NCBI RefSeq assembly: GCF_002754195.1
Contig: NZ_PEEU01000001.1
Span: 3,534,001 to 3,598,000, forward strand
Origin: Flavobacterium sp. 9
Lineage (GTDB): Bacteria > Bacteroidota > Bacteroidia > Flavobacteriales > Flavobacteriaceae
Direction of reading: 5' to 3'
Length of the DNA: 64,000 bases
Of this stretch, positions 11,388-57,453 are shown one piece after another. The notes beneath the pieces are model-generated. The model did not search any database, had not been told where the DNA came from, and saw only the letters and a list, made by a program, of their open reading frames with translations. A program made the position numbers and the translations under genes. How positions within the stretch are numbered: the first letter of the stretch is position 1; each line of letters opens with the position of its first letter.

Positions 11388-11405
11388 TTATATAAAGTAG
11401 TAAAG

Positions 11406-12263: not shown

Positions 12264-12286
12264 TTTCAATCAAAAATTATAATGCG

Positions 12287-12480: not shown

Positions 12481-12567
12481 GGCATATTTAATAAACATTT
12501 TAAAAATTAAATCTATTAAAAAAATAACTAAACAAAAACCAAAATTATTAACCAAAAAGATATTACG

Positions 12568-19499: not shown

Positions 19500-19642
19500 A
19501 GAGGATTAATTAGTTGAAAGTAAAATTATTAGAATTGTCTTAACTAAAACTTAGCAAATATGTAAATTCTTGTTAATAGATTTTTTCGAAGATGAGGTTT
19601 TAGATTAAGTTTTCAGTTAATCAGATTACGACTGAAAACTCT

Positions 19643-39280: not shown

Positions 39281-40096
39281 ATGAAAAATATATATAAAAT
39301 TTTAATCGCATTCATTGGTGTTTTAGCAGTATCATGTAATGCAGATGACGTAGAAAACAGACCAGTAATACAGCCGGTTACAGCACCAGTTTTGCTTACA
39401 CCTGAAAATAGCTTTAACATTGTTCTTTCAAAAGAAAATGAAAAAGAAATTGCTACAACAGTAATTTGGGATGATGCTAAATATGATGGTACTCAAACAG
39501 TTGTAAACTACACAATTGAAATCGCTAAAGCAGGAACTAAATTTGCATCTCCTACTGCAGTAACTACAACTACTGCGCGCTTCAGAGCATTGACAGTAGC
39601 AGAGCTAAATTCAGCTTTGGTTAATGGTGGATTTATTGAAAAAGAAGAAAATAGTGTTGATATTCGTATTAAAGCTACTGTTGGTATTGGTGCAGAAGCG
39701 CAATATTCTAATTCTCATACTTTCAAAGCTACTCCTTATCACACGCCATTAGCAAGTTCTCACTGGTTAGTTGGTGCAGCTACGCCAGGTGGATGGACTT
39801 GGGATGGAGATGCTGAAACAGAATTCCCTCTAGTAGTTGGTAAAACTGATGTTTACCAAGTAACTGTTGTTCTTAAAAGTGGAGAAGCATTTAGAGAATT
39901 CTTAGGAAATAATTTCACAAGTAACGGTAACTGGGATGCAAGTCGTAACTATACTTACTATTCAGGTTTAGGATACACAATCGATTCAGAATTGGTAAAT
40001 GCCGGTGATGGTGATAGTAACTTTAAATATACTGGACCAACAGGACCAAGAGTTTTAAAAATTGATAACGGAGCAAAAACTATAACTTTAGACTAA
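39281..40096 (+). CDS. susE: SusE/SusF-family surface lipoprotein
   Basis: A 271-aa accessory starch-binding lipoprotein with a lipobox ending LAVSC. An N-terminal SusE domain (residues about 35-150, LLTPENSFNIVLSKENEKE, core VTAPVLLTPE nearby) is followed by one carbohydrate-binding-like domain (HWLVGAATPGGWTWDGDAE, core GGWTWDGD) ending in KTITLD. It is shorter than Bacteroides SusE/SusF, which carry two or three starch-binding modules. It is 24 nt after susD and directly followed by a terminator. Confidence 0.9.
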   Translation: MKNIYKILIAFIGVLAVSCNADDVENRPVIQPVTAPVLLTPENSFNIVLSKENEKEIATTVIWDDAKYDGTQTVVNYTIEIAKAGTKFASPTAVTTTTARFRALTVAELNSALVNGGFIEKEENSVDIRIKATVGIGAEAQYSNSHTFKATPYHTPLASSHWLVGAATPGGWTWDGDAETEFPLVVGKTDVYQVTVVLKSGEAFREFLGNNFTSNGNWDASRNYTYYSGLGYTIDSELVNAGDGDSNFKYTGPTGPRVLKIDNGAKTITLD

Positions 40097-40116: not shown

Positions 40117-40145
40117 AAAAGGCTATCTTAGGATAGCCTTTTTTA
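40117..40145 (+). terminator. Rho-independent terminator after susE
   Basis: AAGGCTATCTT/AGGATAGCCTT forms a hairpin at 40119-40140 followed by a T-run, 22 nt after the susE stop codon. It ends the susCDE transcript. Confidence 0.85.
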
Positions 40146-40220
40146 TTTGCAGAAAAACAGCAAAGTTTTTTATGAAATGATTGTTGTTTCAGATTGCTAA
40201 AATATGGTATAAATCTGTCG

Positions 40221-40250
40221 AAAGGGCTGTCTATAAAGACAGCCCTTTTT
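40221..40250 (+). terminator. Second terminator with no gene before it
   Basis: AAAGGGCTGTCT and AGACAGCCCTTT pair around ATAA, followed by TTTTTT. There is no gene between it and the first terminator. It may be a back-up stop or a leftover from a gene lost at the insertion boundary. Its stem resembles that of the terminator after the amylase (AAAGGGTTGTCT, 52176). Confidence 0.75.
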
Positions 40251-40686
40251 TGTACGCTGAACTTTTTAATTCCATAAAATTATATGCAAAACCATATAGT
40301 ATTGGTAACAAATTAGAGACTCATTTTATACTATATAATGCGATTTATTGTCTTGTAATTTTTGGTTTATACTTGAAGAGTAAAGGAGTTTTTAAAATTG
40401 ATAAAAATGTATAATTGTTGGTGTAAAATTTTTTAATGAGTAAAAAAAATCATATTTAATTGTCATTTTAATTATTTGTTAACAGTATAACGTTGTAGTT
40501 GAGCTTTAAAAAAATGTAAGGTAATTTGATAACGTATTTTTTATATTTTTAAGAGAAATATGATATTTTGATATTTAACAGCCTGATTAATTTGTAGTTG
40601 CAAATGCGAATAAAAAGGCTGTAAAACTAGTTGCGCAACTAGGACCGAAATAGAAATTGATGTCTTAAAAATAGGATTTTGGAGAA
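40251..40686. other. Gene-free leader region of the peptide cluster, with 16-bp palindrome
   Basis: This AT-rich stretch of about 440 nt carries no convincing gene. It holds a perfect palindrome CTAGTTGCGCAACTAG at 40627-40642. A wider inverted pair CAGCCT (near 40581) and AGGCTG (near 40617) is also present. These lie within 150 nt of the first precursor gene and could be an operator or leader structure. No consensus promoter is certain. Confidence 0.45.
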
Positions 40687-40718
40687 CAAAAAGCGGAAGC
40701 CGAAAAGCTAATGAGTAG
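40687..40718 (+). repeat. 32-nt repeated element before precursor 1
   Basis: It reads AAAAGCGGAAGCCGAAAAGC and continues to ATGAGTAG. The same element, 31 of 32 nt identical, precedes precursor 2 at 40977-41008. It translates in one frame to QKAEAEKLMSR but has no start codon here. It is probably part of a duplicated unit or a shared mRNA element. Confidence 0.65.
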
Positions 40719-40738
40719 GCTACTTTAACTCATTAAAA

Positions 40739-40939
40739 ATGAAAAAAATTAGTTTGAAGAATATTCATGAAGGAATGAAAAGAGAAGAAATGCGAATGAT
40801 ACAAGGTGGATCTGGCTGCGGATGTGGTTTAGGTGGTCCTTGTATTACTGGAAGCCCGGTGTTTAATTGCGCTGCTCCTTTAAGATGCGTTTCTAAGCCA
40901 TTATTTCCCGGAGATACATTTACAGCAGTTTGTTCTTAA
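40739..40939 (+). CDS. Double-glycine leader peptide precursor 1 (6-Cys core)
   Basis: A 66-aa putative secreted-peptide precursor. Residues 1-24 form a leader starting MKKISLKN and ending EEMRMIQGG. The GG is the expected cut site for the C39 peptidase of the exporter encoded at 45503. The 42-aa core begins SGCGCG and has six Cys, with the spacing NCAAPLRC in the middle and a Cys next to the end. The leader matches precursor 2 at 21 of 24 positions while the core matches at only 19 of 42. Activity (antibacterial, signalling) is unknown. Confidence 0.8.
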   Translation: MKKISLKNIHEGMKREEMRMIQGGSGCGCGLGGPCITGSPVFNCAAPLRCVSKPLFPGDTFTAVCS

Positions 40940-40976
40940 ATTATTGTTTTAAAGTAAACATGTGTTTTTAAATAAC

Positions 40977-41008
40977 CAAAAAGCGGAAGTCGAAAAGCTA
41001 ATGAGTAG
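40977..41008 (+). repeat. 32-nt repeated element before precursor 2
   Basis: Second copy of the element at 40687-40718 (one difference). Here it is in frame with an ATG at 40962, so an N-terminally extended 91-aa product is formally possible, but the extension lacks a counterpart in precursor 1. Confidence 0.65.
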
Positions 41009-41036
41009 ACAAACAAAAAACTTAAAATTTATTAAA

Positions 41037-41237
41037 ATGAAAAAGATTAGTTTAAAAAATATTAGTGAAGGTTTAAAAAGAGATGAAATGAGAATGATCC
41101 AAGGTGGTTCTGGTTGCGGAGCGCCAGCAGGAAGTCACTGTTATCTAAATCATGGAATTTTTAATTGTGCTCCGGCTTTAAGATGTGTTCCTAAACCAGA
41201 ATATTCAGGAGATATTTATAACGGAATTTGCGTATAA
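41037..41237 (+). CDS. Double-glycine leader peptide precursor 2 (5-Cys core)
   Basis: The second 66-aa precursor, with leader MKKISLKN...RMIQGG and a 42-aa core beginning SGCGAPAG. It has five Cys that align with five of the six in precursor 1, including NCAPALRC. The odd Cys number would leave one thiol free after two disulfides, a pattern known from S-glycosylated glycocins. A longer frame starts at 40962, but the ATG at 41037 gives the same length and leader as precursor 1 and is chosen for that reason. Confidence 0.8.
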   Translation: MKKISLKNISEGLKRDEMRMIQGGSGCGAPAGSHCYLNHGIFNCAPALRCVPKPEYSGDIYNGICV

Positions 41238-41311
41238 ACTATTCTTTGTTCAATAAAGAAAGTGTGTTTTGAATTGACAAAAAAAGACAGTTCAAAAAAC
41301 TAATAAATTAA

Positions 41312-41352
41312 AGACTATGCTATAAGTGAAATTATAGTATAGTCTGTTTTTT
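41312..41352 (+). terminator. Terminator/attenuator between precursors and modification genes
   Basis: AGACTATGCTATAA pairs with TTATAGTATAGTCT (one G-T mismatch), followed by GTTTTTT, 11 nt before the next start codon. It would let precursor transcripts greatly outnumber read-through into the downstream operon. Confidence 0.8.
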
Positions 41353-41363
41353 AATCTCATCAC

Positions 41364-42254
41364 ATGAATAAAATAGTATTACTAAACTGTTATCTGGGAA
41401 AACTGCCGTGGTATTTTGATTTTTTCCTGAAATCCTGCGAATCCAATCCAAGTGTTGACTTTATTGTTTTCTCAAATGATGAAGAAAAGAGAGTGCTTCC
41501 GGGAAATGTGAAAATGATAAAATTTTCATTAGAAACTTTTAATTCTCTTGCCTCACAAAAGCTTAATCTGGAAGTGAAGATTACGAATGCCTATAAGATT
41601 TGTGATTTTAAACCAGCCTTTGGAGTAATTTTTCAGGAGGAAATTTCGAGCTATGATTTTTGGGGCGTTTGCGATATCGATCTTGTTTTTGGGAGAATCA
41701 GAGAGTTTATGACAGAAGATTTACTTGATAATTATGATGTGATCTCGGTCAAAGATTCTTTTCCGTCCGGATATTTTTTGCTTTTTAGAAACAACGAGAT
41801 TATAAATAATCTGTTCAAAAAAAGTAAAGATCATAAACTCATTTTTACATCAAATGAGAATTATTGTTTTGATGAATGTGGAGGAGCTTATGACGAAGTA
41901 ATTTCAGGAATAAATATTCTGGATGTGCCTACAAAAACAGAAAGTATTCATCATGTTTTAGCTAAAGAACAAAATAATATCAGAGTTCATTTTGATTTAT
42001 TTATAATCGAAGGAACACCGGGAAAAATAAAATGGGAGAATGGGATTTTAAGTTATAAAAATGAGTACGAAGTTCTATTGTACCATTTTAGCAGTTATAA
42101 GAACAACGTTTTTTCGAATATGAAAAAATGGAAAAAAATACCGGATTGCTTTTACATTGATAAATACAATATAAGAAAATATTCAAATTACAATATCTCC
42201 GCCAAATGGACGGACAGTATAAAGCCAAATCTTAAAAAATTTCTTTTGAGATAG
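41364..42254 (+). CDS. DUF6625-like putative glycosyltransferase
   Basis: A 296-aa soluble protein resembling the DUF6625 family, which is thought to have a GT-A glycosyltransferase fold. The N terminus has the YLGKLPWYFDFFLKSCESNP pattern (core WYFDFFLKSC) and VDFIVFSND. A DxD metal/nucleotide-sugar motif is seen as Asp104-Ile-Asp106 in WGVCDIDLVFG, followed by FPSGYFLLFRNN. It is the first gene after the precursor attenuator and precedes a 91-aa ORF by 2 nt. It may glycosylate the peptides; a role in surface glycans is the alternative. Family name is from memory. Confidence 0.7.
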   Translation: MNKIVLLNCYLGKLPWYFDFFLKSCESNPSVDFIVFSNDEEKRVLPGNVKMIKFSLETFNSLASQKLNLEVKITNAYKICDFKPAFGVIFQEEISSYDFWGVCDIDLVFGRIREFMTEDLLDNYDVISVKDSFPSGYFLLFRNNEIINNLFKKSKDHKLIFTSNENYCFDECGGAYDEVISGINILDVPTKTESIHHVLAKEQNNIRVHFDLFIIEGTPGKIKWENGILSYKNEYEVLLYHFSSYKNNVFSNMKKWKKIPDCFYIDKYNIRKYSNYNISAKWTDSIKPNLKKFLLR

Positions 42255-42256
42255 AT

Positions 42257-42532
42257 ATGTCTTGTTCTAAATTTTTGAATATAAAACCAATGCTAACTAT
42301 AGAAAAAGGCAAATATTCATATATGAATAGAGATATTTTTATTGGCAAAAATGATAAAGAACAAAATTATGTATGTTATCAGGATAATGGTAATCAGTTT
42401 GATTTAATCAAAATGATTTTTCATGCTAAATATTTTTTTAATGCACATACCAAACAATATTATAAAGATGAAAAAAATAGTTTCTCCGAGGTATTGCTTG
42501 ACGGAAACTTAATTAAATACTCCAAATCATAA
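42257..42532 (+). CDS. 91-aa protein of unknown function in the peptide cluster
   Basis: It lies tightly between two glycosyltransferase-like genes (2 nt and 5 nt gaps), so translation is likely coupled. The protein has no signal peptide or membrane helix and is rich in Lys, Tyr and Phe, with three Lys-containing turns and two Cys (Cys3, Cys40). No family is recognised. Possible roles are immunity, precursor recognition or a subunit of one of the neighbouring enzymes; none is supported directly. Confidence 0.6.
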   Translation: MSCSKFLNIKPMLTIEKGKYSYMNRDIFIGKNDKEQNYVCYQDNGNQFDLIKMIFHAKYFFNAHTKQYYKDEKNSFSEVLLDGNLIKYSKS

Positions 42533-42537
42533 ATTTA

Positions 42538-43920
42538 ATGAAAATAATTCAATCATTTTGGTCGCAAAATCTGACGGATCCATTAGCAGAAAATTATGGA
42601 TGGCTTTCAGAACCCCATAATTGGCTAAGCTGGATATTGAGTGCTAATCAATTAGCTAAATTTTATAAAGTAGAATTATATACAGATCAAAAAGGATATG
42701 AAATATTAATAGATAAGCTACAATTGCCTTATCATAAAGTTCATGTTGTTTTGGATGAACTCAATCATTATCATAAAAGTCTTTGGGCAATGCCTAAAAT
42801 TAAGACTTATAGTCTTCAAAATGAACCTTTTTTGCATGTTGACGGAGATGTATTTATTTGGAAAGAGTTTTCGGATGATTTATTAAGTGGTGATTTTATT
42901 ACTCAGAATTTAGAAATTACAACCGAATACTATGAAGAAATGTGGAAGGATATCTATCCTAATTTAGTTTTCGTTCCCAATGAAATGAAAGATTATATTA
43001 ATAATCATAATAATTATGCCTACAATATGGGTATAATAGGAGGTAATAATTATGATTATTTCAAGAAATATGCAGCCATTTCTTCTGATTTTGTGGATAA
43101 TAATAAATCAGTTTGGAATTCGATTAACGGGTTTAATTTCAATATTTTTTTTGAACAAGTATTGTTTTATAACATGGTAAAAGAGTCTTCTGAGAAAGTT
43201 AATTGCTTGTTTTCGGACACTCCAAATGATAATAATTATATAGGATTTGGAGATTTTGACAAAGTGCCTAATCAAAAAAGCTATCTGCATTTATTAGGGA
43301 CTTATAAAAAAAGTGTGAGTATTTGCAATAATCTGGAAACTTATGTGATCAAAGAATATCCGCAATATTTTGAACGCTTAAGAAAATTGTTTCCTTCTCA
43401 TTTTTCGCATTATGATATGTCTTTTGATTCGTCTAAAAATCTGGATTTGAAAAATGAATTCAAATTGCAAAATGCGTTCAATACAAAACAAGAATTTTCA
43501 AGTGAGTATATTATAGGAAGAAATTTTATGGCGTTAGAATTTCCACAAGAATTTGATGATTTAATTGCTCAAAACAGAGCTTTTGAATTATTAAAATTAT
43601 CGGAGGTTGTAATAGGAGATGTTTTCAACGAAGAATTAAATGAAAATTTAAGATCTGTTATTGTACCTGAATTGGGAGATCTGATGTCGCGTTTAAGCAT
43701 AGACGAAATTGATGAATTGATTTTACAGGAATTAGACAAACCAATACTTTACGACAAGCTTATTGTTCATATGACTGCTTATTTAGAAGAGGATGTAGAC
43801 GAACACGGAAGAAAGGATTTTATTGAATTGATTCAGAATCGAATCCGATTTTTTCTAGTGGAGAAAGTACTTTTTTTAAAAATAATGGTTGAAGAAACAG
43901 ATTTAATTCCATCAAAATGA
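42538..43920 (+). CDS. DUF6734-like putative glycosyltransferase with C-terminal extension
   Basis: A 460-aa protein. The first ~290 residues resemble DUF6734 (IIQSFWSQ at the start, a WLSWILSANQLAKFY stretch, VELYTDQKG). A DxD motif is Asp102-Gly-Asp104 in LHVDGDVFIW, then AYNMGIIGG. The remaining ~170 residues are acidic and helical (ELGDLMSRLSIDEIDELI) and not recognised; they could bind a carrier or partner. The stop codon overlaps the next gene by 4 nt (ATGA). Sugar donor and acceptor are unknown. Family name is from memory. Confidence 0.7.
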   Translation: MKIIQSFWSQNLTDPLAENYGWLSEPHNWLSWILSANQLAKFYKVELYTDQKGYEILIDKLQLPYHKVHVVLDELNHYHKSLWAMPKIKTYSLQNEPFLHVDGDVFIWKEFSDDLLSGDFITQNLEITTEYYEEMWKDIYPNLVFVPNEMKDYINNHNNYAYNMGIIGGNNYDYFKKYAAISSDFVDNNKSVWNSINGFNFNIFFEQVLFYNMVKESSEKVNCLFSDTPNDNNYIGFGDFDKVPNQKSYLHLLGTYKKSVSICNNLETYVIKEYPQYFERLRKLFPSHFSHYDMSFDSSKNLDLKNEFKLQNAFNTKQEFSSEYIIGRNFMALEFPQEFDDLIAQNRAFELLKLSEVVIGDVFNEELNENLRSVIVPELGDLMSRLSIDEIDELILQELDKPILYDKLIVHMTAYLEEDVDEHGRKDFIELIQNRIRFFLVEKVLFLKIMVEETDLIPSK

Positions 43921-45506
43921 CAGACTTTTTTTATTTAAAAAAATATCTTCAGGAACATAAATATTATCAATTCGAAGAGAAAATATTATTTGAATTAGAA
44001 TCACATCCTGATTATCCAAGTTTAGTGGCAATTGTTGATGTATTCAATTATTATGATATCGAAAATATTGCGGCAAGAGTAGATCAAAGTGAGCTGATAA
44101 ATTTGCCTGAAACGTTTCTTTCTGTTTTTTGCACCCATACGGGAAATGAAATTGTTTACACAAAAAAAAGAGGACAGAATTTTGAAATTCAATTTGCAAA
44201 TGGTTTTATTCAAAAGCTTTCCAGAACGGAATATTTTGAAGGATGGAACGGAATGATTGTGGCTATTGAAGAAAATGAAAATAATGAGATAGAAAATAAT
44301 GTCTTTTCTCAAAATATCCGTTTGTTTCTATTTGGTATTTGCATCATTGCGTTATTGCAGATTTACAGTATAAATTTATCAAACCTGGTTTTGTCAATCA
44401 GTTATGCCTTAACCTCTTTTGCGGGATTATTGATCAGCGTTTTTTTAGTTAGAGAAGATTTAGGTTTTAATGATGTGTCGGTTTCAAGAATATGTCAGGC
44501 GTCAAAAAAAACAAGTTGCAAAGAAGTACTGTCGTCTAAAGGAGCAAAAATATTTGGCAATTTAAAGCTAAGTGATGCATCACTAATTTACTTTTCTGTT
44601 TTAGCAGTTTTTTCTGTTTTTACAGTATTTACAGATAGTTTTGTTGTTTATAGCTGGTTAGCATTGTTTAGTATTCCCGTGTTGTTTTACTCCGTTTTTA
44701 CTCAATATTTTATCGTAAAAAAATGGTGTGTTTTGTGTTTAGGTATTGCAATTGTATTAATACTTCAGATTTTATTAGTTTCAATTTACGGTTTTAATAC
44801 AGCAATCTTAAGTTTGACAGTTTTAAAGAAAGTCGTTCCATTTTTGTTTGTTTTTGCATTGGCAAGTTTTGCTTTTTTAGAATTTAAAAGATTGATAAAA
44901 CAAGGTTTGGTTAATAAAATTATCGAAGTAAAATACAACCAAATCAAACGAAAATATCCTGTTTTTAAAGCATTGGCAAATAATGACGAAAGTATAAATC
45001 AATATACTTTAGAAGAGATGGAAGCAATTGTAATAGGTCAGGATAATGCCCCAATTGAGCTCAATGCAGTTCTTAGTGCTTCTTGTATACATTGCCACAA
45101 AGTCTATCAAAACCTAATAAAATTGTGGAATAAAAATCCAGAGCAATTAAAAATAAAACTTGTTTTTAATATAAACGCAGAGAATGTAAACAATCCCTAT
45201 AATATTATTTATAAGCAGGCGGTTGGCTATTATCTTTCCGGAGATCATGACAAAGTGATGGCGTTATTGCATGATTGGCACGTAGATAGAATAGATTTTG
45301 AAATGTGGAAATCACGATGGATAAATGATCAATCTGAAATAGGAACAGAAATAATACAACATCAATATCATTGGTGTCTTGAAAATAAAATTTTTCACAC
45401 TCCTGCAATTATTTTAAACGGGCAACTGCTGCCAAACGAGTATGAAGTCCACGAACTCAATTTTTTTATTGATAATTTAATAAAAGAGAAAACCCCAGTA
45501 CTTTGA
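43917..45506 (+). CDS. C39-like / vitamin K epoxide reductase / thioredoxin-like fusion
   Basis: A likely disulfide-forming membrane enzyme for the exported Cys-rich peptides. Residues 1-115 resemble a C39 peptidase-like domain (ELESHPDYPSLVAIVDVF) without a catalytic Cys. Residues 135-315 are a membrane VKOR domain with loop Cys193 and Cys201 (RICQASKKTSC) and the active-site Cys271-Val-Leu-Cys274 (KKWCVLCLG). Residues 365-525 are a thioredoxin/DsbA-like domain with Cys390-Ile-His-Cys393 (SASCIHCHK). Length 529 aa. It overlaps both neighbours by 4 nt. The domain order is directly visible; oxidation of the peptides is inferred. Confidence 0.85.
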   Translation: MTDFFYLKKYLQEHKYYQFEEKILFELESHPDYPSLVAIVDVFNYYDIENIAARVDQSELINLPETFLSVFCTHTGNEIVYTKKRGQNFEIQFANGFIQKLSRTEYFEGWNGMIVAIEENENNEIENNVFSQNIRLFLFGICIIALLQIYSINLSNLVLSISYALTSFAGLLISVFLVREDLGFNDVSVSRICQASKKTSCKEVLSSKGAKIFGNLKLSDASLIYFSVLAVFSVFTVFTDSFVVYSWLALFSIPVLFYSVFTQYFIVKKWCVLCLGIAIVLILQILLVSIYGFNTAILSLTVLKKVVPFLFVFALASFAFLEFKRLIKQGLVNKIIEVKYNQIKRKYPVFKALANNDESINQYTLEEMEAIVIGQDNAPIELNAVLSASCIHCHKVYQNLIKLWNKNPEQLKIKLVFNINAENVNNPYNIIYKQAVGYYLSGDHDKVMALLHDWHVDRIDFEMWKSRWINDQSEIGTEIIQHQYHWCLENKIFHTPAIILNGQLLPNEYEVHELNFFIDNLIKEKTPVL

Positions 45507-47698
45507 AAATAAAACCATTCCCTTTTTATAAACAGCCCGATGCTAAGGATTGCGGCCCAACTTGTTTACGAATTATCGCAAAATATTATGGAAAAGTAAT
45601 TGAACTTCAGCAAATACGTAATCTTTCTGAAACTACTCGTGAAGGCAGTAGTTTACTGGGATTAAGCGATGCTGGAGAAGCCTTAGGATTTAGAACTCTT
45701 GGCGTAAAAAACAATTTTGAAACTTTAAAAAATGAAATGCCTTTACCTTGTATTGTTCATTGGAATAACCAACATTTTGTGGTGGTTTATAAAATGAAAC
45801 AAGACAAAGTTTATATATCTGATCCTAGTCATGGATTAATAGTATATTCTAAAGAAGAGTTTATTAAGTTCTGGATTGGCAAAAATGCACATGAAAAAAC
45901 GGAAGAAGGTATTGCACTTTTATTAGAACCAACACCGGAGTTCTACAAAAACGAATGGGATGCCGAAAATTCTAAAAGAAGTTTTAGTTATTTAACAAAA
46001 TATCTGTTTCGTTATAAAGGTTTAGTAATTCAGTTAATAGTTGGATTAGCGGCCGCAAGTTTATTTTCGTTATTGTTTCCGTTTCTTACCCAAAGTATTG
46101 TTGATGTAGGGATTCAAACTCAGGATTTAAACTTTATTTATTTAATTCTTTTAGCTCAATTAATGCTTTTTGCCGGTCAAACAGCGATCGAAGTCCTTCG
46201 TTCCTGGATAATGCTGCATTTGAGCACGAGAATTCATATTTCATTGGTTTCTGATTTTTTTATAAAACTCATGAAATTACCAATTAGTTACTTTGACAGC
46301 CGTATGACTGGCGATATAATGCAGCGAATAGGAGATAACCGCAGAATTGAACAATTGCTAACCGGCAGCTCACTCAACGTAATGTTTTCACTGCTAAATC
46401 TAGTGGTGTTTAGCTTCGTTCTGGTTTTTTATAATCTTCAATTGTTTTTGGTGTTTTTAGTAGGCAGTATCGTTTATCTGGCGTGGATTTTATTTTTTCT
46501 GAAAAAACGAAAAGAACTGGATTATAAGCGTTTTTCGCAAGTTTCAAACGAACAGTCAAAAGTCATGGAACTTATAAACGGAATGCAGGAAATTAAAATG
46601 CATAATGCCGAAAAACAAAAACGCTGGGGATGGGAATTTGTCCAGATACGTCTTTTTAAAGTCAACATGCAATCGCTTACGCTGGAACAATGGCAATCTG
46701 TAGGATCAAATTTTATTAATCATCTTAAAGATTTACTGATTACTTTTTTTTCGGCAACCTTAGTTGTCAAAGGAGAATTGACACTAGGAATGATGATGTC
46801 TGTTCAATACATTATTGGGCAGCTAAATAACCCGTTAATGCAAATGGTAAGTTTTGTACGCTCGCTTCAGGATGCCAAGATAAGTTTAGAGCGTCTGGGC
46901 GAAATTCATGATAAAGAAGATGAAGAAGATTTATTGAATCCTAAGATCCATGATTTAGGACATTCAAATATCAGTATTAAGAATTTATCTTTTAGATACA
47001 CCGGAAATCCTAATTATGTTCTGGAAGATTTAAACTTATTTATACCCAAGCAAAAGACCACTGCTATTGTAGGAACCAGTGGAAGCGGGAAAACAACTTT
47101 GCTAAAACTTCTGATGAAATTTTATGAACCTAATATGGGTGAGATTCTTCTTGAGAATATGAAATTCAATACTATTTCGCCAAGTGCCTGGAGAGGAAAA
47201 TGCGGAGTTGTAATGCAGGATGGATTTATTTTTAATGATACAATTGCCAATAATATTGCGGTAGGTGATGATTATGTAGATAAAAAAAGACTTCTACATG
47301 CTATTGAAACCGCCAATATTAAAGATTTTATCGAAAGTTTGCCATTGTCTTATAATACACAAATTGGAAACGAAGGAACCGGAATTTCCGGAGGACAAAA
47401 GCAGCGGCTTTTGATTGCCAGAGCAGTTTATAAAAACCCGGATTATTTGTTTTTTGATGAAGCAACTTCTTCTTTAGATGCAAATAATGAAAAGGTAATC
47501 ATGGAAAATCTGAATCAATTTTTGGTTGGTAAAACGGCAATTATTATCGCGCATAGATTATCTACAGTAAAAAATGCAGACCAGATTGTGGTTCTTGAAA
47601 AAGGAAAAATCGTCGAAATAGGAACGCATAAAGAACTTGTTCAGGCTCAGAAAAACTACTACGAATTAGTTAAAAATCAATTAGAATTAGGGAATTAA
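45503..47698 (+). CDS. Peptidase-containing ABC transporter (C39 PCAT exporter)
   Basis: This exporter cleaves the double-glycine leader and transports the core peptide. The 731-aa protein has a C39 peptidase domain (Cys17 in DCGPTC, His91 in NNQHFVVVY, Asp107 in ISDPSHG), six membrane helices (about 165-450), and an ATPase domain with Walker A GTSGSGKTTLL, signature ISGGQKQRLLIARA and Walker B YLFFDEATSS. It starts at a TTG overlapping the previous stop (TTGA). The next ATG would cut off the catalytic Cys, so TTG is the start. All catalytic residues are intact. It acts with the adaptor 22 nt downstream. Confidence 0.95.
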   Translation: MKIKPFPFYKQPDAKDCGPTCLRIIAKYYGKVIELQQIRNLSETTREGSSLLGLSDAGEALGFRTLGVKNNFETLKNEMPLPCIVHWNNQHFVVVYKMKQDKVYISDPSHGLIVYSKEEFIKFWIGKNAHEKTEEGIALLLEPTPEFYKNEWDAENSKRSFSYLTKYLFRYKGLVIQLIVGLAAASLFSLLFPFLTQSIVDVGIQTQDLNFIYLILLAQLMLFAGQTAIEVLRSWIMLHLSTRIHISLVSDFFIKLMKLPISYFDSRMTGDIMQRIGDNRRIEQLLTGSSLNVMFSLLNLVVFSFVLVFYNLQLFLVFLVGSIVYLAWILFFLKKRKELDYKRFSQVSNEQSKVMELINGMQEIKMHNAEKQKRWGWEFVQIRLFKVNMQSLTLEQWQSVGSNFINHLKDLLITFFSATLVVKGELTLGMMMSVQYIIGQLNNPLMQMVSFVRSLQDAKISLERLGEIHDKEDEEDLLNPKIHDLGHSNISIKNLSFRYTGNPNYVLEDLNLFIPKQKTTAIVGTSGSGKTTLLKLLMKFYEPNMGEILLENMKFNTISPSAWRGKCGVVMQDGFIFNDTIANNIAVGDDYVDKKRLLHAIETANIKDFIESLPLSYNTQIGNEGTGISGGQKQRLLIARAVYKNPDYLFFDEATSSLDANNEKVIMENLNQFLVGKTAIIIAHRLSTVKNADQIVVLEKGKIVEIGTHKELVQAQKNYYELVKNQLELGN

Positions 47699-47720
47699 AA
47701 GCTCCGTTAAATTAAATCAA

Positions 47721-49019
47721 ATGGCATCAAAAAATGTTTTAGACGATATAGAATTACGCTCTGAATCAGTTCAGGAAGTACTGTCAAATCCGCCTGCGTG
47801 GATTGTTCGTTATGGGATTTCCATCATTTTTGTACTAATAGTAGTGTTTGTTATTGGTTGTTGGTTTGTAAAATATCCTGATATAATAGCAGCAAAAGCG
47901 GTAGTTACGTCAAATTATCCGCCGGAGCGATTGGAATCTAAAGTAAATTCCAGAATTGTCAAGCTATGTGTTTCTAACTCTTCAAAAGTTAAAAAAGAAA
48001 CCATAGTCGCAATTTTAGAAAGTACAGCAAATTTTGAAGATGTTTTAAAACTGGACAAAATTGTAGCCTCAATTTCTTCTAATTATCAAACGTTTTATTT
48101 TCCCTTTAAGGAAATGAATAATTTAGAGTTAGGTGATATTCAATCTTCGTTTAGTCAGTTTCATAAAGCGTATATTGAGAATGAACTCAATCAGAAACTT
48201 CATCCTTATTCAGAAGAAATAAATGTGGGCAAAAGCTCGCAAACAGAAAACGCAAATAGATTAGCGTCTTTATATGAACAGCAAAAATTGGAAAAAATAA
48301 AGCTGAATTTAAGCGATGTTCAATACAAAAGATCTTTGCAATTATTTGAGAAAGGTGTGATTTCGAAATATGATTTAGACATTCAAAAAGGAAATAATCT
48401 GCAGGCTAAACAAAGTTATGATCAGACGAATTCGGCAATTTCACAACAAAAAGAAGCTATAAATCAAGCTAGAAAACAAGTTGTAGCAAGCCAGATTTCG
48501 CAAGAAAAAGCAGATGTTACTACTTTAAGTTCTTTGTTTCAGGCATTAGACGAATTGAAAAAAAGTATCCATGTTTGGAAACAAAACTATTTGTTTGTGG
48601 CAACTTACGACGGAACTTTTAGATTTCAGAATTCTTGGAAAGAAAATCAACTTATAAAAACCGGAGATTTATTTGCAACAATATTACCCGAAAATCAAGG
48701 AGAATACTTGGGAAATCTAAAAGTGCCTTTGCAGAATTCAGGTAAAATTCAGATCAATCAAAAAGTATTAATCAAGCTGGATAATTTCCCATATCAGGAA
48801 TATGGAATGCTTGAAGGACGCGTTCAGTCGATGTCAACAATAACAGATAAAGACGGGAATTATTTTATCGAAGTCGCAATGCCAAAAGGACTAAAAACGA
48901 CTTATGGCAAAGAGATAAAATTTGATAAAGAATTAACTGGTTCCGCAGATATTATCACTGAAGAAATGCGCTTGATTGAGCGAGTTTTTTATCAATTCAG
49001 AAAATTAGTTCAAAGATAA
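47721..49019 (+). CDS. HlyD-family membrane fusion protein
   Basis: The periplasmic adaptor linking the C39 ABC exporter to an outer-membrane channel. The 432-aa protein has one N-terminal membrane helix (about residues 32-50), a lipoyl-like half-motif (ERLESKVNSRIVKLCVSNSSKVKKE, core RIVKLCVSNSSKVKK), a long coiled-coil hairpin (residues about 165-270) and a C-terminal barrel domain (DGTFRFQNSWKENQLIKTGD, core NQLIKTGDLFATILPE). It ends the operon. No TolC-type outer-membrane protein is encoded nearby, so a housekeeping channel must serve. Confidence 0.92.
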   Translation: MASKNVLDDIELRSESVQEVLSNPPAWIVRYGISIIFVLIVVFVIGCWFVKYPDIIAAKAVVTSNYPPERLESKVNSRIVKLCVSNSSKVKKETIVAILESTANFEDVLKLDKIVASISSNYQTFYFPFKEMNNLELGDIQSSFSQFHKAYIENELNQKLHPYSEEINVGKSSQTENANRLASLYEQQKLEKIKLNLSDVQYKRSLQLFEKGVISKYDLDIQKGNNLQAKQSYDQTNSAISQQKEAINQARKQVVASQISQEKADVTTLSSLFQALDELKKSIHVWKQNYLFVATYDGTFRFQNSWKENQLIKTGDLFATILPENQGEYLGNLKVPLQNSGKIQINQKVLIKLDNFPYQEYGMLEGRVQSMSTITDKDGNYFIEVAMPKGLKTTYGKEIKFDKELTGSADIITEEMRLIERVFYQFRKLVQR

Positions 49020-49119
49020 ATAACTATTTTTCAAATAAACAGATGTAAAAGAGTGAATTTAGGAATTCGTTTTTGTCTGAAAAATATCCTTTTTTAAGTA
49101 ATTATCCTATTTTTAGAAT

Positions 49120-49165
49120 AAAGTTTTTAACACTACAACGTTTGCGAAATGTCATTTCGAAAACG
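49120..49165 (+). promoter_or_regulatory. Starch-PUL box (amylase copy) and overlapping palindrome
   Basis: Positions 49120-49149 (containing TAACACTACAACGTTTGCG) match the susC box at 26 of 30 positions. An inverted repeat, CGTTTGCGAAATG then CATTTCGAAAACG (one mismatch, 1-nt spacer), overlaps its end at 49139-49165. The box starts 72 nt before the -7 element, exactly as at susC, pointing to common control. Confidence 0.65.
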
Positions 49166-49191
49166 CTATAGTAGATTTACGATTTATAGGA

Positions 49192-49199
49192 TACCTTTA
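49192..49199 (+). promoter_or_regulatory. -7 element of the amylase promoter
   Basis: This reads TACCTTTA, one base from TAnnTTTG, 42 nt before the start codon. The -33 element is weak, consistent with activator dependence. Confidence 0.5.
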
Positions 49200-49241
49200 T
49201 TAATTATGTCATTTTTTGCTTTAATATACATTACTTAAATT

Positions 49242-52115
49242 ATGAAAAAAACTTTACTTTTATTTTTCCTTTTGTTATCCGCAATTACATTTGCGCAACA
49301 ACAAACGGTTACTTACAGTGTAAGTCCATCAACTTTTGAAGAAACTACTGCAATTACCATTACAATTAATGGAAACAGTGTCAATGAAAGTGCTTGGGGA
49401 GTTACAGATAACTCACTTTATTTGTGGGCATGGGCTTTTGATACCAATGATACCACTCAAAAAGGTACTCCAAATAATGGTGGTTGGGATGCATCCAGCG
49501 ATGCGAGTAAATTTACATACAACTCAGCTTCCGATACTTATACAAAAACAATTACGCCAACAACCTATTATAATATAACAGGAATTGGTAAAATTGGATT
49601 TTTGGTTAAAGCAAAAAATGGAACCGGCGATAAAAAGTCACAAGATATTCTGGTTGAAGTAGGATCTTTTCAAGTAACATTAACATCTCCGGCAGAAAAT
49701 AGTACTACAATTGTAGCTTCGGGAGCAAGTTTTAATATTGCTGCAACAAATACAAACGGAGTTGCAAGTTATTCCTTGAAAGCTAACGGAACTGTTATCA
49801 ATACAAATGCGAGTACAGCAAGTTATTCTTATTCAGCAACTAATATTACAGCCAATCAAAGTTATGAGTTAATTGCAACTCAGGGAACAACGACAATCTC
49901 AAAAAAGTTTTCGGTTGTTGTAAATCCAAATACAGTTTTAGAAAACATGCCTGCGGGTTTAGTTGACGGAATTAACTATAATGCTTCTGATGCTACAAAA
50001 GCAACTTTGGTTCTTGATGCACCATTAAAAGACTTTGTTTACGTTGCAGGAAGTTTTAACAATTGGCAGCCTTCATCGGCGTATGCCATGAAAAAAGATC
50101 CAACTTCGGGGAAATTCTGGTTAGAATTAACGGGTTTAGTTTCCGGCGTAAATAATACGTATCAATATTGGGTAGTTGAATCTACTCCAATTGCAAATTC
50201 ACCTTCATTGGTAAAAACAGCAGATCCATATTCAACTTTAGTTTTATCTCCTTTTGATGATTCTGGGATTCCTGCAGCTTCATATCCAAATATACCGACT
50301 TATCCGGCAGGACAAAATTTTGAAGTTACGGTTTTGAAAACAGGACAAACTCCATACAATTGGAAAGTGACAAATTTCACAAAACCTGCAAAAGAAAAAT
50401 TAGTAGTTTATGAAGTTTTGGTTCGTGATTTTGATGCCAATAAAAATTATCAAAGTCTGATTGACAGAATCGATTATTTTAAAAATCTTAAAATAAATGC
50501 AATCGAATTAATGCCGGTTATGGAGTTTGAAGGCAATGAAAGCTGGGGTTATAATACTTCATTTCATATGGCTTTGGATAAATTTTACGGAACTTCAGAT
50601 AAGCTAAAAGAGTTTATTGATTTATGTCATGAAAATGGAATTGCGGTGATTCTTGACGTTGCTTTAAATCACGCTTTTGGTCGTAATCCTATGGTTAGAA
50701 TGTGGATGAATGATCCTGATGGAGACGGTTTTGGTTCGCCAACAGCTGAGAATCCTTATTTTAATACCGTTGCAAAACATACTTATAGTGTTGGAGAAGA
50801 TTTTAATCACCAATCACTAAAAACACAAAATTATGTAGATCGTGTAATCAAACAATGGATTGAAGAATACAAAATTGATGGTTTCCGTTGGGATTTAACC
50901 AAAGGATTTACACAAGCTTGTACAGCATCAGACGAAGCTTGTACGAACAGATATCAGCAAGACAGAGTAGATATCTTAAAGAAATATGCTGATTATTCCT
51001 GGAGTCTTGATCCTACACATTATACCATTTTTGAACATTTAGGAACTGATGCCGAAGAGAAAGAATGGGCAAATTACAGAGTTACAGAAACGCCTAGTAA
51101 GGGAGTTATGATGTGGGGAAAAATGACAAATCAATACAATCAATTGTCAATGGGATACGCAACTGATAGCGATATTTCCAGAATGGCAAGTGCTAGTCGT
51201 GGTTTTACTGCAAACAGATTAATGGGATATGCAGAAAGTCATGACGAAGAGCGTTTGATGTATAAAAATGTTCAATACGGAGCTACAAGCGGATCTTATA
51301 ACGTGAAAACATTAAATACAGCTTTATCAAGAATGTCTGCAATTGGTGCCGTTTCGTTATTAGTTCCTGGTCCAAAAATGATTTGGCATTTTGGAGAACT
51401 AGGTTGGGACAGTTCTATTTTTACTTGTAATAATAACACCGTAAATACAGATAATGATGCTGCTGCCGGAGATTGTAAATTAGATACAAAACCACAACCT
51501 CAATGGGTTAATAATTGGTTAGGAAACACGAATAGAAGCAAGATTTATAATGATTGGGCAAAAATGATTAATCTTAAAACTACAGAACCTGTATTTTTAG
51601 GAACTCCAACTATTTCAAGTCCAAATTCATTAAGTATCAATATCAAAATCAAGAATGATAATCTGACTTCGGCACAATTAAAAGACGTTGTGATCTTGGC
51701 TAATTTTGATCTTACGGCAAAAAATATTGCGACAGGTTTTCCATATGCAGGAACTTGGGTTAACTTAATGGATAACACAACTATTGTCGTTACGGATGTA
51801 AATGCAACTATAAGTATTCCAGCTGGAGAATATAGAATTTACGGTAACAAACAAGCGAATTTAGCAATTGAAGATTTCGAAAAAGGAAATTTAGTTAGTC
51901 TGTATCCAAATCCGGTTGCGAACTACTTTACTTTAGATATTGCAACAACCAAAGTTCAGGTTTATGCAATTTCAGGTCAATTGGTAAAAAGCTTTGCAAC
52001 ACATGGAAATTTAGATTTTCAGTTTGGAGTAAGCGATTTGAAAACAGGAATATATATTGTAAAAGCTTTTGACGAGAACGATAATGTTCGAGTAGCAAAG
52101 TTTATTAAAAAATAA
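49242..52115 (+). CDS. Secreted multidomain GH13 alpha-amylase with T9SS sorting domain (SusG-like)
   Basis: The surface or secreted amylase of the starch locus. The 957-aa protein has a signal peptide (ITFAQ) and a DUF4961-like N-terminal domain to about residue 145. Next come an Ig-like region and a CBM48-like domain (VYVAGSFNNWQPSSAY, about 265-360). The GH13 barrel follows: DVALNHAFG, DGFRWDLTKG with Asp, TIFEHLG with Glu, and YAESHDEERL with Asp. The C terminus is a type A type IX secretion domain (SLYPNPVANYFTLD, GIYIVKAF, VAKFIKK). No lipobox, unlike Bacteroides SusG. Separated from susE by the peptide cluster. Confidence 0.92.
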   Translation: MKKTLLLFFLLLSAITFAQQQTVTYSVSPSTFEETTAITITINGNSVNESAWGVTDNSLYLWAWAFDTNDTTQKGTPNNGGWDASSDASKFTYNSASDTYTKTITPTTYYNITGIGKIGFLVKAKNGTGDKKSQDILVEVGSFQVTLTSPAENSTTIVASGASFNIAATNTNGVASYSLKANGTVINTNASTASYSYSATNITANQSYELIATQGTTTISKKFSVVVNPNTVLENMPAGLVDGINYNASDATKATLVLDAPLKDFVYVAGSFNNWQPSSAYAMKKDPTSGKFWLELTGLVSGVNNTYQYWVVESTPIANSPSLVKTADPYSTLVLSPFDDSGIPAASYPNIPTYPAGQNFEVTVLKTGQTPYNWKVTNFTKPAKEKLVVYEVLVRDFDANKNYQSLIDRIDYFKNLKINAIELMPVMEFEGNESWGYNTSFHMALDKFYGTSDKLKEFIDLCHENGIAVILDVALNHAFGRNPMVRMWMNDPDGDGFGSPTAENPYFNTVAKHTYSVGEDFNHQSLKTQNYVDRVIKQWIEEYKIDGFRWDLTKGFTQACTASDEACTNRYQQDRVDILKKYADYSWSLDPTHYTIFEHLGTDAEEKEWANYRVTETPSKGVMMWGKMTNQYNQLSMGYATDSDISRMASASRGFTANRLMGYAESHDEERLMYKNVQYGATSGSYNVKTLNTALSRMSAIGAVSLLVPGPKMIWHFGELGWDSSIFTCNNNTVNTDNDAAAGDCKLDTKPQPQWVNNWLGNTNRSKIYNDWAKMINLKTTEPVFLGTPTISSPNSLSINIKIKNDNLTSAQLKDVVILANFDLTAKNIATGFPYAGTWVNLMDNTTIVVTDVNATISIPAGEYRIYGNKQANLAIEDFEKGNLVSLYPNPVANYFTLDIATTKVQVYAISGQLVKSFATHGNLDFQFGVSDLKTGIYIVKAFDENDNVRVAKFIKK

Positions 52116-54202: not shown

Positions 54203-54244
54203 CAGAACAATTTTAAAACAGAAAATGGTTGTCATATTGAATAA

Positions 54245-54390
54245 ATATTGACATTAAAAGGGAATTTGGTGTAACTCCAAAACTGTCCCGCAGCTGTAAG
54301 CTCATTAACTGAAACCCTTTAATACGTCACTTTTCATTTTTTGAAAGGGAAGGCTGGGTGTAGGGAGCAAGTCAGAAGACCTGCCATTTT
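54245..54390 (+). promoter_or_regulatory. Cobalamin (B12) riboswitch
   Basis: Conserved core elements are in order: GGGAATTTGGTGTAACTCC (54260-54278), ACTGTCCCGCAGCTGTAA (54282-54299), and the B12-box-like AGTCAGAAGACCTGCC (54370-54385). A GGCTGGGTGTAGGGAGC stretch precedes the box. These match the adenosylcobalamin riboswitch family. It should repress downstream expression when B12 is plentiful. Downstream at 54431-54476 an imperfect inverted repeat (AACCAATAC with GTATTGTTTGG) could be the expression platform. Confidence 0.93.
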
Positions 54391-54506
54391 TATAGTAATA
54401 AATAGCTTTCGGGGATTGAAGCTTGAATTAAAACCAATACTTTTTCACTCTATGTGATAATGGTATTGTTTGGTTATTCTATTCTCGTAAGCCATAAAAA
54501 GAGTTT

Positions 54507-56512: not shown

Positions 56513-56540
56513 AAAACCCGAATATTTCTATTCGGGTTTT
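56513..56540 (-). terminator. Terminator of the tRNA-Phe transcript
   Basis: On the minus strand AAAACCCGAAT pairs with ATTCGGGTTTT, followed by a T-run, directly after the tRNA 3' end. Confidence 0.8.
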
Positions 56541-56541
56541 G

Positions 56542-56614
56542 TGGTACCTCCAGGGATCGAACCAGGGACACATGGATTTTCAGTCCATTGCTCTACCATC
56601 TGAGCTAAGGTACC
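56542..56614 (-). tRNA. tRNA-Phe (GAA)
   Basis: The 73-nt gene on the minus strand folds as a cloverleaf. The acceptor arm is GGTACCT with AGGTACC. The D-loop AGCTCAGATGGTAGAGC follows, then an anticodon stem ATGGA/TCCAT with loop CTGAAAA (anticodon GAA) and T-arm CTGGTTCGATCCCTGG in shortened form. The discriminator is A and CCA is not encoded. Confidence 0.95.
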
Positions 56615-56691
56615 TTTGTGTGCTTATTGCGGGTGCAAAGATAGAATCATTTTCCGTTTATCCAAAACATTTTTTTAAAAAAATCAATTCG

Positions 56692-56699
56692 TATCTTCG
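56692..56699 (+). promoter_or_regulatory. -7 element for coaX
   Basis: TATCTTCG, one base from TAnnTTTG, 19 nt before the coaX start codon. Confidence 0.45.
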
Positions 56700-56718
56700 C
56701 AGAGGTAAAAAAATAAAT

Positions 56719-57453
56719 ATGGTTTTAGCAATCGATGTAGGTAATACAAGAATTAAAGCTTCTGTCTTTGAGGATAATAATGTTTTGGAAAGTTTTGTTT
56801 TTGATAAAAATGAGCTCGAAAAAAATATTGAAAAAATTTTAAAAAAATTTCCAAATTGCTCTGATTTGATCGTCGCTTCGGTTGGAAATATCGAAAAACA
56901 ATCTTTTTTAGCTTTCGAAAAAACACTAAATATTCATTTTTTTACACACGAAGATCTTTTTCCTTTCACAAATAAGTACGCTACTCCAAAAACTTTAGGA
57001 ATTGACAGAATGATTTTAGCTTCCGGAGCAACTTTACAGTTTCCGGAACAAAATAGATTAGTAATTGATGCAGGAACTTGTATTACCTATGATTTCATCG
57101 ACGAAAATGACAATTATTTGGGCGGAGCAATTTCTCCGGGCCTACGTTTAAGGTATGAAGCACTCCACAATTTCACAGCCAGATTGCCGTTACTGACTTT
57201 AGAGGCACCTGAATCCTATATAGGAGACACGACTGCACAAGCCATTCATTCGGGAGTTGTCAATGGCTTCGTCTATGAGATTGATGGTTTTATCGATGAA
57301 TATCGAGCAAACTTTTCAAATTTTATAATAATTTTAACGGGAGGTGATGCAGAATTTTTGGCTAAACGATTAAAAAATACCATATTTGCCAATTCAAATT
57401 TCTTACTGGAGAGTTTGAACCAAACATTTCAATATAAAATCGACAATGATTAA
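56719..57453 (+). CDS. coaX: Type III pantothenate kinase
   Basis: The enzyme phosphorylates pantothenate, the first step of coenzyme A synthesis. The 244-aa ASKHA-fold protein has AIDVGNTRIKASVF at the N terminus, KTLGIDRM, IDAGTCITYDFID, GGAISPGLRLRYEALH and LTGGDAEFLAKRL, all family motifs. The open frame extends upstream over the antisense of the tRNA, but ATG 56719 places the phosphate motif properly and sits just after the promoter. It overlaps the next gene by 8 nt. Confidence 0.95.
   Translation: MVLAIDVGNTRIKASVFEDNNVLESFVFDKNELEKNIEKILKKFPNCSDLIVASVGNIEKQSFLAFEKTLNIHFFTHEDLFPFTNKYATPKTLGIDRMILASGATLQFPEQNRLVIDAGTCITYDFIDENDNYLGGAISPGLRLRYEALHNFTARLPLLTLEAPESYIGDTTAQAIHSGVVNGFVYEIDGFIDEYRANFSNFIIILTGGDAEFLAKRLKNTIFANSNFLLESLNQTFQYKIDND

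Follow-up and report, generated by a model that had tools for sequence, protein, structure and literature searches.

The window, that is, the whole 64,000-nucleotide stretch of Flavobacterium sp. 9 DNA analysed here, carries a cassette of eight ORFs inserted between a SusE-like and an amylase-like gene. Coordinates are those of the window, and all genes and elements lie on the forward (+) strand. The left flank is the SusE-like gene (39281..40096), located behind SusC- and SusD-like genes, and the right flank encodes a 957-aa amylase-like protein (49242..52115); these four names were assigned by eye and not from a family scan. Homology to the empty site L253 stops in the left arm at about position 40144 and resumes in the right arm at about 49239, defining an island of approximately 9.1 kb (40145..49238, no strand assigned, boundaries approximate). 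Of the 30 SusE-like loci with the best scores, the amylase-like gene immediately follows the SusE-like gene in 23, corresponding to the empty site; three contain the cassette (the window counted) and four show neither arrangement. As read from these comparisons, the cassette is an exchangeable island within a starch-utilisation-like locus. No frame break was seen in the block genes other than DUF6625.

The cassette begins with two precursor genes, precursor 1 (40739..40939) and precursor 2 (41037..41237), for which the ATG at 41037 was preferred over a GTG at 40962. Both ORFs read as 66 aa, with a 24-aa leader ending in a double glycine (residues 23-24) and a 42-aa core containing six and five cysteines, respectively, which confirms the two Cys-rich double-glycine precursors noticed in the first-pass annotation. 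In 12 aligned precursors the leaders were constant and the cores variable and Cys-rich. Five cysteines were invariant in all 12, and the first precursor type has a sixth, so that an odd number of cysteines is not general. For these leader, Cys and Ser/Thr comparisons the related sequences were chosen by the analyst's own patterns, and some of the entries scored as glycosyltransferase-positive look spurious (e.g. L029, L221). Precursor 1 gave a single, chance-level match among solved structures (E 0.63).

Upstream of precursor 1 lies a DUF805b element (RF02914; 40690..40721) scoring 38.3 bits against a gathering score of 35.6, and upstream of precursor 2 a DUF805b-like element (40980..41011) under the gathering score (32.4 bits, E 4.8e-7). 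Such an element was found 5' of all 12 precursors examined. It was rejected as a specific mark of the peptide system: 212 of 249 Flavobacterium genomes match it at E<=0.001, 140 of the 249 above the gathering score, and it is found ahead of genes of other kinds as well. A literature search for DUF805b, two name variants included, found no paper. Between the precursors and the enzyme genes, a 14-bp hairpin followed by a U-run (41312..41345) may act as an attenuator, and a hairpin of 14-15 bp with near-identical sequence occurs in 5/5 genomes examined. Scanning yielded 48 sigma-70-type promoters, compared with 46.2 in shuffled sequences, and 6 terminator-like sites, compared with 3.7. Given these counts, the hairpin claim rests on its conservation and not on the scan.

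The 3' part of the block encodes a VKOR-thioredoxin fusion whose N-terminal domain is C39-like (43917..45506), a C39-peptidase ABC exporter with a TTG start (45503..47698) and a HlyD-type adaptor (47721..49019; HlyD_3, E 2e-9). In the fusion, assigned by Pfam, motifs and hhalign, VKOR was matched at E 4e-14 (PF07884) and thioredoxin weakly, just under the cut-off (PF13462, E 1e-4); the redox motifs are CVLC (C271/C274) and CIHC (C390/C393), and the N-terminal part, aligned from 36 fusions, resembles the exporters' C39 domain (hhalign, E 2.3e-6). The exporter matched Peptidase_C39 (E 7e-36), ABC_membrane (E 1e-32) and ABC_tran (E 2e-29). Fusion and adaptor were thereby confirmed as previously annotated, the thioredoxin part weakly, and the Cys17/His91/Asp107 triad of the exporter is indeed intact. 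The Pfam families listed for nine proteins, the eight block ORFs and a 77-aa ORF at 40181 (for the exporter, the best 25 of 29 families), agreed with the earlier statement that ATP-grasp, radical SAM, lanthionine synthetase and YcaO genes are missing, and included no match to LanB/LanC, LanM, LanKC or LanL. Judged by this gene content, export and disulfide bonding of the peptides are well supported: the island very likely produces two small Cys-rich peptides, links their cysteines by disulfides and exports them.

Fold and integrity of DUF6625 and DUF6734

The two remaining proteins belong to DUF6625 (PF20330, E 3e-61) and DUF6734 (PF20508, E 1e-113), for which our literature search found no paper. 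AlphaFold models, in the case of DUF6625 that of the intact homologue P0126, had pLDDT values of 92 and 94, and for both the fold matches were glycosyltransferases, enzymes that we take to be of the GT-A type. According to these models, both families have a GT-A glycosyltransferase fold. The DxD motif is present in 60/60 DUF6625 and 62/62 DUF6734 members; in the latter, D102, D104, N163 and Q207 are conserved in 62/62. Predicted fold and invariant motif bear out the initial impression of two glycosyltransferase-like DxD proteins.

Among the Pfam families listed, glycosyltransferase families were matched neither by the 60 DUF6625 members (14/14 families listed) nor by the 62 DUF6734 members (best 25 of 32 families), and neither protein matched SunS in NCBIfam at E<=1. 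Against PDB sequences, the DUF6625 profile reached E 0.0034 with a 141-aa chain and the DUF6734 profile E 0.69; hhalign detected no similarity between the two families. SunS chains were absent among the matches listed in the fold searches, which proves nothing.

DUF6734 (42538..43920) is predicted to comprise a glycogenin-like glycosyltransferase domain (residues ~1-285) and a C-terminal alpha/beta domain. The N-terminal domain resembles glycogenin and LgtC, presumably both GT8 enzymes, in fold and DxD motif; it differs from them by an identity of only ~10-13% and by the additional C-terminal domain. Glycogenin, too, puts sugar on a protein acceptor. The beta-beta-beta-alpha-alpha-alpha part of the C-terminal domain recalls PqqD-type recognition elements: hhalign against PqqD profiles placed the helices in register over 47 columns without significance (E 0.056), and two PqqD sequences gave no match. 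Leader recognition may be provided by a separate neighbouring protein of 208 aa in cases where DUF6734 is short; comparison of c16 (207-208 aa) with the DUF6734 C-terminus gave E 0.052 and a probability of 1%. A further family, c68 (~300 aa, L080/L081), had no Pfam match and no hhalign similarity to DUF6625 or DUF6734, and its DCDEYF motif looks GT2-like to us. The Flavobacterium sp. 9 genome also carries a divergent DUF6734 pair in a different context (L020).

DUF6625 is frame-broken in the Flavobacterium sp. 9 assembly. Its first ORF (41364..42254) encodes the N-terminal 296 aa with the frame broken near the end, and the C-terminal remainder of 91 aa follows out of frame (42257..42532). The 91-aa ORF shares 64-92% identity with the C-terminus of DUF6625 from relatives that encode it in one piece, and in the four relatives described below the protein is one ORF of 388-389 aa; the 91-aa ORF was rejected as a separate small protein or immunity gene, being the DUF6625 tail. 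This difference from the relatives makes it possible that the modification pathway is decaying in Flavobacterium sp. 9, leaving a product short of one sugar or a cluster on its way out. Against such decay, the first ORF retains the entire Pfam domain (residues 8-269), other clusters (L134, L148, L149 and L152) have DUF6625 forms of 276-298 aa, no break was seen in the other genes, and the break itself may possibly be a sequencing or assembly error. Decay here is compatible with a sugar-bearing peptide in the intact relatives, among them F. hibernum.

Occurrence in Flavobacterium and other Bacteroidota

A genome search for the same gene set, as the first-pass annotation had proposed, recovered four further genomes with identical gene order and the glycosyltransferase-like genes in all of them; they were found via DUF6734. 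The recurrence indicates that the block is not a chance assembly. We also started from the VKOR fusion, which had 113 matches among 249 Flavobacterium genomes. These were grouped after exclusion of four fragments, 53 of them and the window being read fully and the remainder by eye from coordinates. A glycosyltransferase-like gene lay beside the fusion in 5/5 close ones, 14/24 of a second group and ~1/80 of a third; in this search DUF6734 adjoined all five close fusions, the window included. The earlier proposal was to be abandoned if such genes were absent from most homologous clusters: they are absent from most of the wide VKOR family, and present throughout the close group (5/5). By eye from coordinates, 18/35 DUF6625 matches in the genus are away from VKOR and DUF6734 matches. 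In Bacteroidota, DUF6734 was near a C39 exporter, a VKOR fusion or LanB/LanC in 52/78 loci, and 26/78 had none of the three markers within the DNA examined.

These distributions bear on whether the island makes plain disulfide-bonded, bacteriocin-like peptides, with the glycosyltransferases acting elsewhere, e.g. protecting the producer by modifying a glycan or receptor on its own surface. Both DUF6625 and DUF6734 are missing from most VKOR/C39 peptide clusters in the genus, none of the Pfam matches in the block suggests an immunity protein, and bacteroidetocins are described as made without a glycosyltransferase gene (PMC6671954). We nevertheless regard this explanation as unlikely, given that one glycosyltransferase-like family, DUF6734, adjoins peptides of very different cores together with a particular leader class, and that the glycosyltransferase-like genes belong to a single run of genes, with the precursors before them and the exporter after. 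A far broader proposal is tentative and rather improbable, namely that DUF6734 is a dedicated Bacteroidota peptide glycosyltransferase, combining a glycogenin-like domain with a leader-recognition domain, and defines a phylum-wide, SunS-independent class of glycosylated secreted peptides across chemistries (disulfide peptides, lanthipeptides and perhaps a GG-leader lysozyme).

A proposed pathway

Sequence or model evidence shows which genes are present, the type of leader, the folds of the glycosyltransferases, the C39 triad, the redox motifs, the island and the conserved elements; the sugar acceptor, the order of steps, the regulation and the activity are inferred. Transcription would begin with the two precursors, each behind its DUF805b-like element, and the hairpin would thin read-through, giving precursor in excess of enzyme. 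In the cytoplasm, DUF6734, together with DUF6625 where intact, would attach one or more sugars to core Cys, Ser or Thr residues, with the shared leader as guide; the peptides are probably glycosylated before export. The C39 exporter would cut after the double glycine and export the core with HlyD. The VKOR-thioredoxin fusion would oxidise the cysteines, and its C39-like domain may hold the leader.

The product is probably antibacterial, acting most likely against other bacteria. A role as a signal, adhesion or surface peptide appears doubtful: it would agree with the position of the cassette in a carbohydrate-utilisation-like locus and with DUF805b elements preceding other kinds of genes, but it accounts less readily for variable Cys-rich cores behind constant leaders and for cassettes exchanged at one site. 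Variable cores and cassette exchange at one site are more usual for antagonism. To the pathway as a whole, an exchangeable cassette for two secreted, disulfide-rich, sugar-bearing RiPPs acting against bacteria, we assign a probability of about 0.58. The disulfide-bonded, possibly glycosylated exported peptide originally suggested is partly supported, by the glycosyltransferase folds and gene logic; the non-SunS enzymes and the broken DUF6625 limit this support.

Comparison with known peptide systems

The leaders scored 21.3 and 21.1 bits against TIGR04149 (rSAM-modified RiPPs), under the 25-bit cut-off, and the Pfam scan matched no radical SAM gene in the block. Bacteroidota class I lanthipeptides, which have GG leaders, share the C39 exporter and HlyD with the island, and DUF6734 and DUF6625 also occur in their loci (L070, L071); in contrast to them, the island lacks LanB and LanC.

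Bacteroidetocins also come from Bacteroidota and, like the island, combine a short Cys peptide behind a GG leader with a thiol oxidoreductase and a C39 ABC exporter; an immunity gene is evident in neither. The account in PMC6671954 gives them four cysteines, leaders of 15-16 aa and a 5-TM protein, in a four-gene region described without a glycosyltransferase gene, and has production requiring only the peptide, the thiol oxidoreductase, the C39 exporter and the TM protein. The island precursors differ by their 24-aa leaders and 5-6 cysteines, five being invariant in 12/12.

PMC9576775 counts ten glycocins established by experiment up to 2022, in Bacillota. The glycocin clusters described in the literature consulted use SunS-type or similar enzymes. 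Sublancin, glycocin F, pallidocin and thermoglycocin/orniglycocin share with the island a precursor with a GG (or similar) leader and Cys-rich core, a glycosyltransferase gene, thiol-disulfide enzymes and a C39-peptidase ABC exporter, and some have five cysteines, as in precursor 2. Singh and Rao (2021) reportedly extended glycocin clusters beyond Firmicutes, and may already list Bacteroidota clusters; our search for papers on Flavobacterium GG peptides found none. The island differs in having two glycosyltransferase-like genes of unrelated families, neither of SunS type, a VKOR-thioredoxin fusion where glycocin clusters have BdbA/BdbB or DsbB, and a HlyD adaptor, with no SunI-like gene identified. 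Glycocin membership by enzyme was rejected: the SunS family (TIGR04195) gave four sub-cut-off matches in the genome, none in the island, and passed the cut-off in 1/14 control genomes. Of the glycocin-like system first proposed, the gene logic stands and the enzyme family does not.

By its gene content, then, the island has glycocin-like logic with unrelated enzymes. If true, the pathway would mean that sugar-bearing RiPPs are made in a second way, independent of the first, in a Gram-negative phylum; it would give a testable function to DUF6734 and DUF6625, unstudied families with a predicted glycosyltransferase fold that recur beside Cys-rich and lanthionine peptides, and would point to a large reservoir of secreted peptides still to be explored.

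Gene block, island and putative regulatory features

The peptide genes form one block (40739-49019, all on the + strand) of the 6.33-Mb, single-contig host chromosome, comprising two precursors, DUF6625, DUF6734, a VKOR-thioredoxin fusion, a C39-peptidase ABC exporter and an HlyD adaptor. Both precursors are 66 aa long, with a double-glycine leader of 24 aa and a Cys-rich core of 42 aa. The exporter retains Cys17, His91 and Asp107, and the VKOR fusion carries the motifs CVLC (271-274) and CIHC (390-393). Since a profile comparison with 36 aligned fusions matched its N-terminus to the C39 domain of the exporters (94 columns, E 2.3e-6, probability 89%), this part looks like a C39-like domain, perhaps holding the leader. 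DUF6625 is a single ORF of 388-389 aa in Flavobacterium sp. ov086, F. cutihirudinis, F. hibernum and F. sp. IB48; in the window its C-terminal part is a 91-aa ORF in another frame (42257-42532), and the complete Pfam domain (residues 8-269) lies within the first ORF. This frame break could be genuine or stem from an error in the sequence.

The closest relatives of the cluster are found in Flavobacterium. Comparison with an empty site (L253) shows that the peptide genes form an island (~40145-49238), and the cassette occupies the same site in all five genomes found to carry it (the window and L153-L156). A SusE-like gene is present in 133 of the 249 Flavobacterium genomes sampled; at the 30 best-scoring loci, for which the downstream context was read, it is followed immediately 3' by an amylase-like gene in 23, by the cassette in three (the window, L252 and L254) and by neither in four, the SusC, SusD, SusE and amylase labels being our reading of the sequences and not family-scan assignments. 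At two loci, L080 and L081, a different cassette precedes an amylase-like gene 75-79% identical; it contains other precursors, two DUF6734 genes and a protein, c68, together with a VKOR fusion, exporter and HlyD of the window's type. The c68 protein (L080, 10101-11021, - strand; L081, 10083-10949, + strand) is ~300 aa long, has no Pfam match and sits between the two DUF6734 genes. Its DCDEYF motif is one that we take to be GT2-like, and it is perhaps a third sugar transferase of this alternative cassette.

A DUF805b element precedes both precursors of the window, above the gathering score for precursor 1 and below it for precursor 2; matches above this score were also found once each in L064, L066 and L080 and twice in L081. 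Its core motif begins 38-46 bases 5' of the ATG in 12/12 precursors from five genomes, and in 5/5 genomes a hairpin of 14-15 bp with a U-run separates DUF6625 from the last precursor. The host genome holds 14 DUF805b matches, including 40690-40721 and 40980-41011 in the window. Small GG- or AG-type Cys peptides lie just 3' of five of the 14 (L116, L121, L123, L124, L129), and the other elements are mostly ahead of larger proteins, two being without a nearby ATG. The element is perhaps the mark of a common regulon. Elsewhere in the window, a cobalamin riboswitch (54209-54402, + strand, 109.7 bits) lies 5' of the gene at 54735, and a Flavo-1 RNA (25-104, - strand, 76.4 bits) at the window edge. 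The longest ORF of the gene at 56539-57453 (+ strand) begins across an opposite-strand tRNA-Phe (56541-56614), so its true start is probably further downstream.

Association of DUF6734 and DUF6625 with peptide clusters

DUF6734 and DUF6625, families with a predicted glycosyltransferase fold (GT-like genes), are both kept by each of the four further genomes in which this cluster was found; DUF6734 had served to find these genomes, so its presence there is not an independent observation. Two views independent of DUF6734 are given by searches with the precursors and with the VKOR fusion. Of the five protein clusters returned by the former, three can be matched to L153-L155 by contig or name and one, P0003, shares its core with the precursor of L156; the last, P0004, is without an assigned locus. 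The latter gave 113 matches in 79/249 genomes, which were sorted, four fragments left out, into three groups by similarity to the window's fusion. All five matches of the closest group, window included, have DUF6734. A scripted count found a GT-like gene at 13/23 in the second group and 2/26 in the third; as both third-group positives are the two VKOR genes of one locus (L231), one of them bordering the second group, we adopted 14/24 and ~1/80, the latter by eye over 80 listed matches. From these counts (5/5, 14/24, ~1/80), the GT-like genes are the mark of a sub-lineage and not of the entire peptide-export family.

Within the genus, DUF6734 occurs in 32/249 genomes and DUF6625 in 27/249. Near 78 DUF6734 loci from named Bacteroidota records we found a C39 exporter at 40, VKOR at 34 and LanB/LanC at seven, and at least one of these at 52, or at 39/54 of the loci of 20 kb or more. 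DUF6734 neighbours both disulfide-type peptides and LanB/LanC clusters (Pfam-checked at L019, called by clustering elsewhere). None of the three was seen at 26/78 loci, in part because of short contigs and in part because of an exporter-less Flavobacterium DUF6734 group. In the genus sample, the exporter is near 17 of the 31 DUF6734 loci read (window included) and absent near 14. Judged by eye from match positions, 17 of the 35 DUF6625 matches have a VKOR or DUF6734 match in the vicinity; the other 18 stand apart from both. DUF6734 also occurs outside peptide clusters, since L020 (host genome, 5737502-5739280) and L089 hold a divergent DUF6734 pair in conserved gene order, with neither C39 exporter nor VKOR.

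The host genome has at least three further peptide clusters, namely L019 (two DUF6734 with LanB/LanC), L133 (VKOR and several precursors, neither DUF6734 nor DUF6625) and L134 (VKOR and DUF6625). In L141, from Flavobacterium genome G302, a C39 exporter and a VKOR fusion flank ~20 tandem Cys-rich precursors with GG leaders (10647-15112 and 19073-19953), of which two are identical; neither DUF6734 nor DUF6625 was found in its 20 kb. This array is a large peptide repertoire behind near-identical leaders. In L063, a 444-aa phage-lysozyme-domain protein (11026-12360) adjoins DUF6734, a C39 exporter and HlyD. Precursor 2 matches it at E 5e-5, presumably through the leader region, and it is possibly a GG-exported enzyme.

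Precursor features and proposed mechanism

An RDEM-like leader is carried by 46/60 precursors near a GT-like gene vs. 13/83 where a VKOR cluster lacks such a gene. Among Flavobacterium loci, the Ser+Thr value per locus is 0.167 with a GT-like gene (18 loci) and 0.116 without (22 loci; p 0.013), and an odd number of Cys is seen in 7/28 peptides with such a gene vs. 4/81 without (12/60 vs. 4/83 over all loci, p 0.006). These p-values are guides only, since the sequences are related, the patterns were chosen by us and some entries are spurious. Twelve aligned precursors share five Cys (positions 27, 35, 44, 50 and 65); to these the first precursor type adds one more, at position 25 or 29, and the second has five only. 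Two disulfides would leave one of five Cys over, resembling glycocins with a sugar on a Cys, such as pallidocin in the excerpt of PMC6405829. By this analogy the odd Cys may be the sugar-bearing site, a lead and not proof; it could instead be free or paired between chains.

The C-terminal domain of DUF6734 (~298-450) includes three strands, then three helices, an order that we take to be that of PqqD-type recognition elements. In a profile comparison it aligned with PqqD in register at a non-significant E of 0.056, and at loci with a short DUF6734 (L023, L025-L027) the 207-208-aa product of a neighbouring gene gives a weak alignment with this domain (E 0.052). If a PqqD-like domain is confirmed, DUF6734 would be a class of its own of leader-guided peptide glycosyltransferase.

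We propose that the precursors would be produced in excess, receive sugar(s) in the cytoplasm under guidance of the leader, and be cleaved and exported by the C39 exporter together with HlyD, their disulfides being formed by the VKOR fusion. An exported, disulfide-bonded peptide is very probable. To glycosylation by the island's enzymes, our main reading, we give a probability of about 0.6, and an antibacterial product has slightly better than even odds.

Comparison with known systems

Our literature searches by family name found no mention of DUF6734 or DUF6625. Sugar-bearing peptides of Bacteroidota have already been predicted, on record being a putative glycocin of B. fragilis (PMC4922554) and, for Bacteroidales, hits to peptide S-glycosyltransferases (PMC10352776). 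Bacteroidetocins have an exporter and a thiol oxidoreductase in common with the island, but differ in having four Cys and, for the region described in the extract of PMC6671954, no glycosyltransferase gene. The first-pass annotation had likened the block to glycocin clusters, whose genes (sunA, sunS, sunT, bdbA and bdbB in the excerpt of PMC6405829) follow the same logic as the island's. Family profile searches of the island proteins and the host genome found no SunS member in the island, which is therefore not glycocin by family, but glycocin-like in working.
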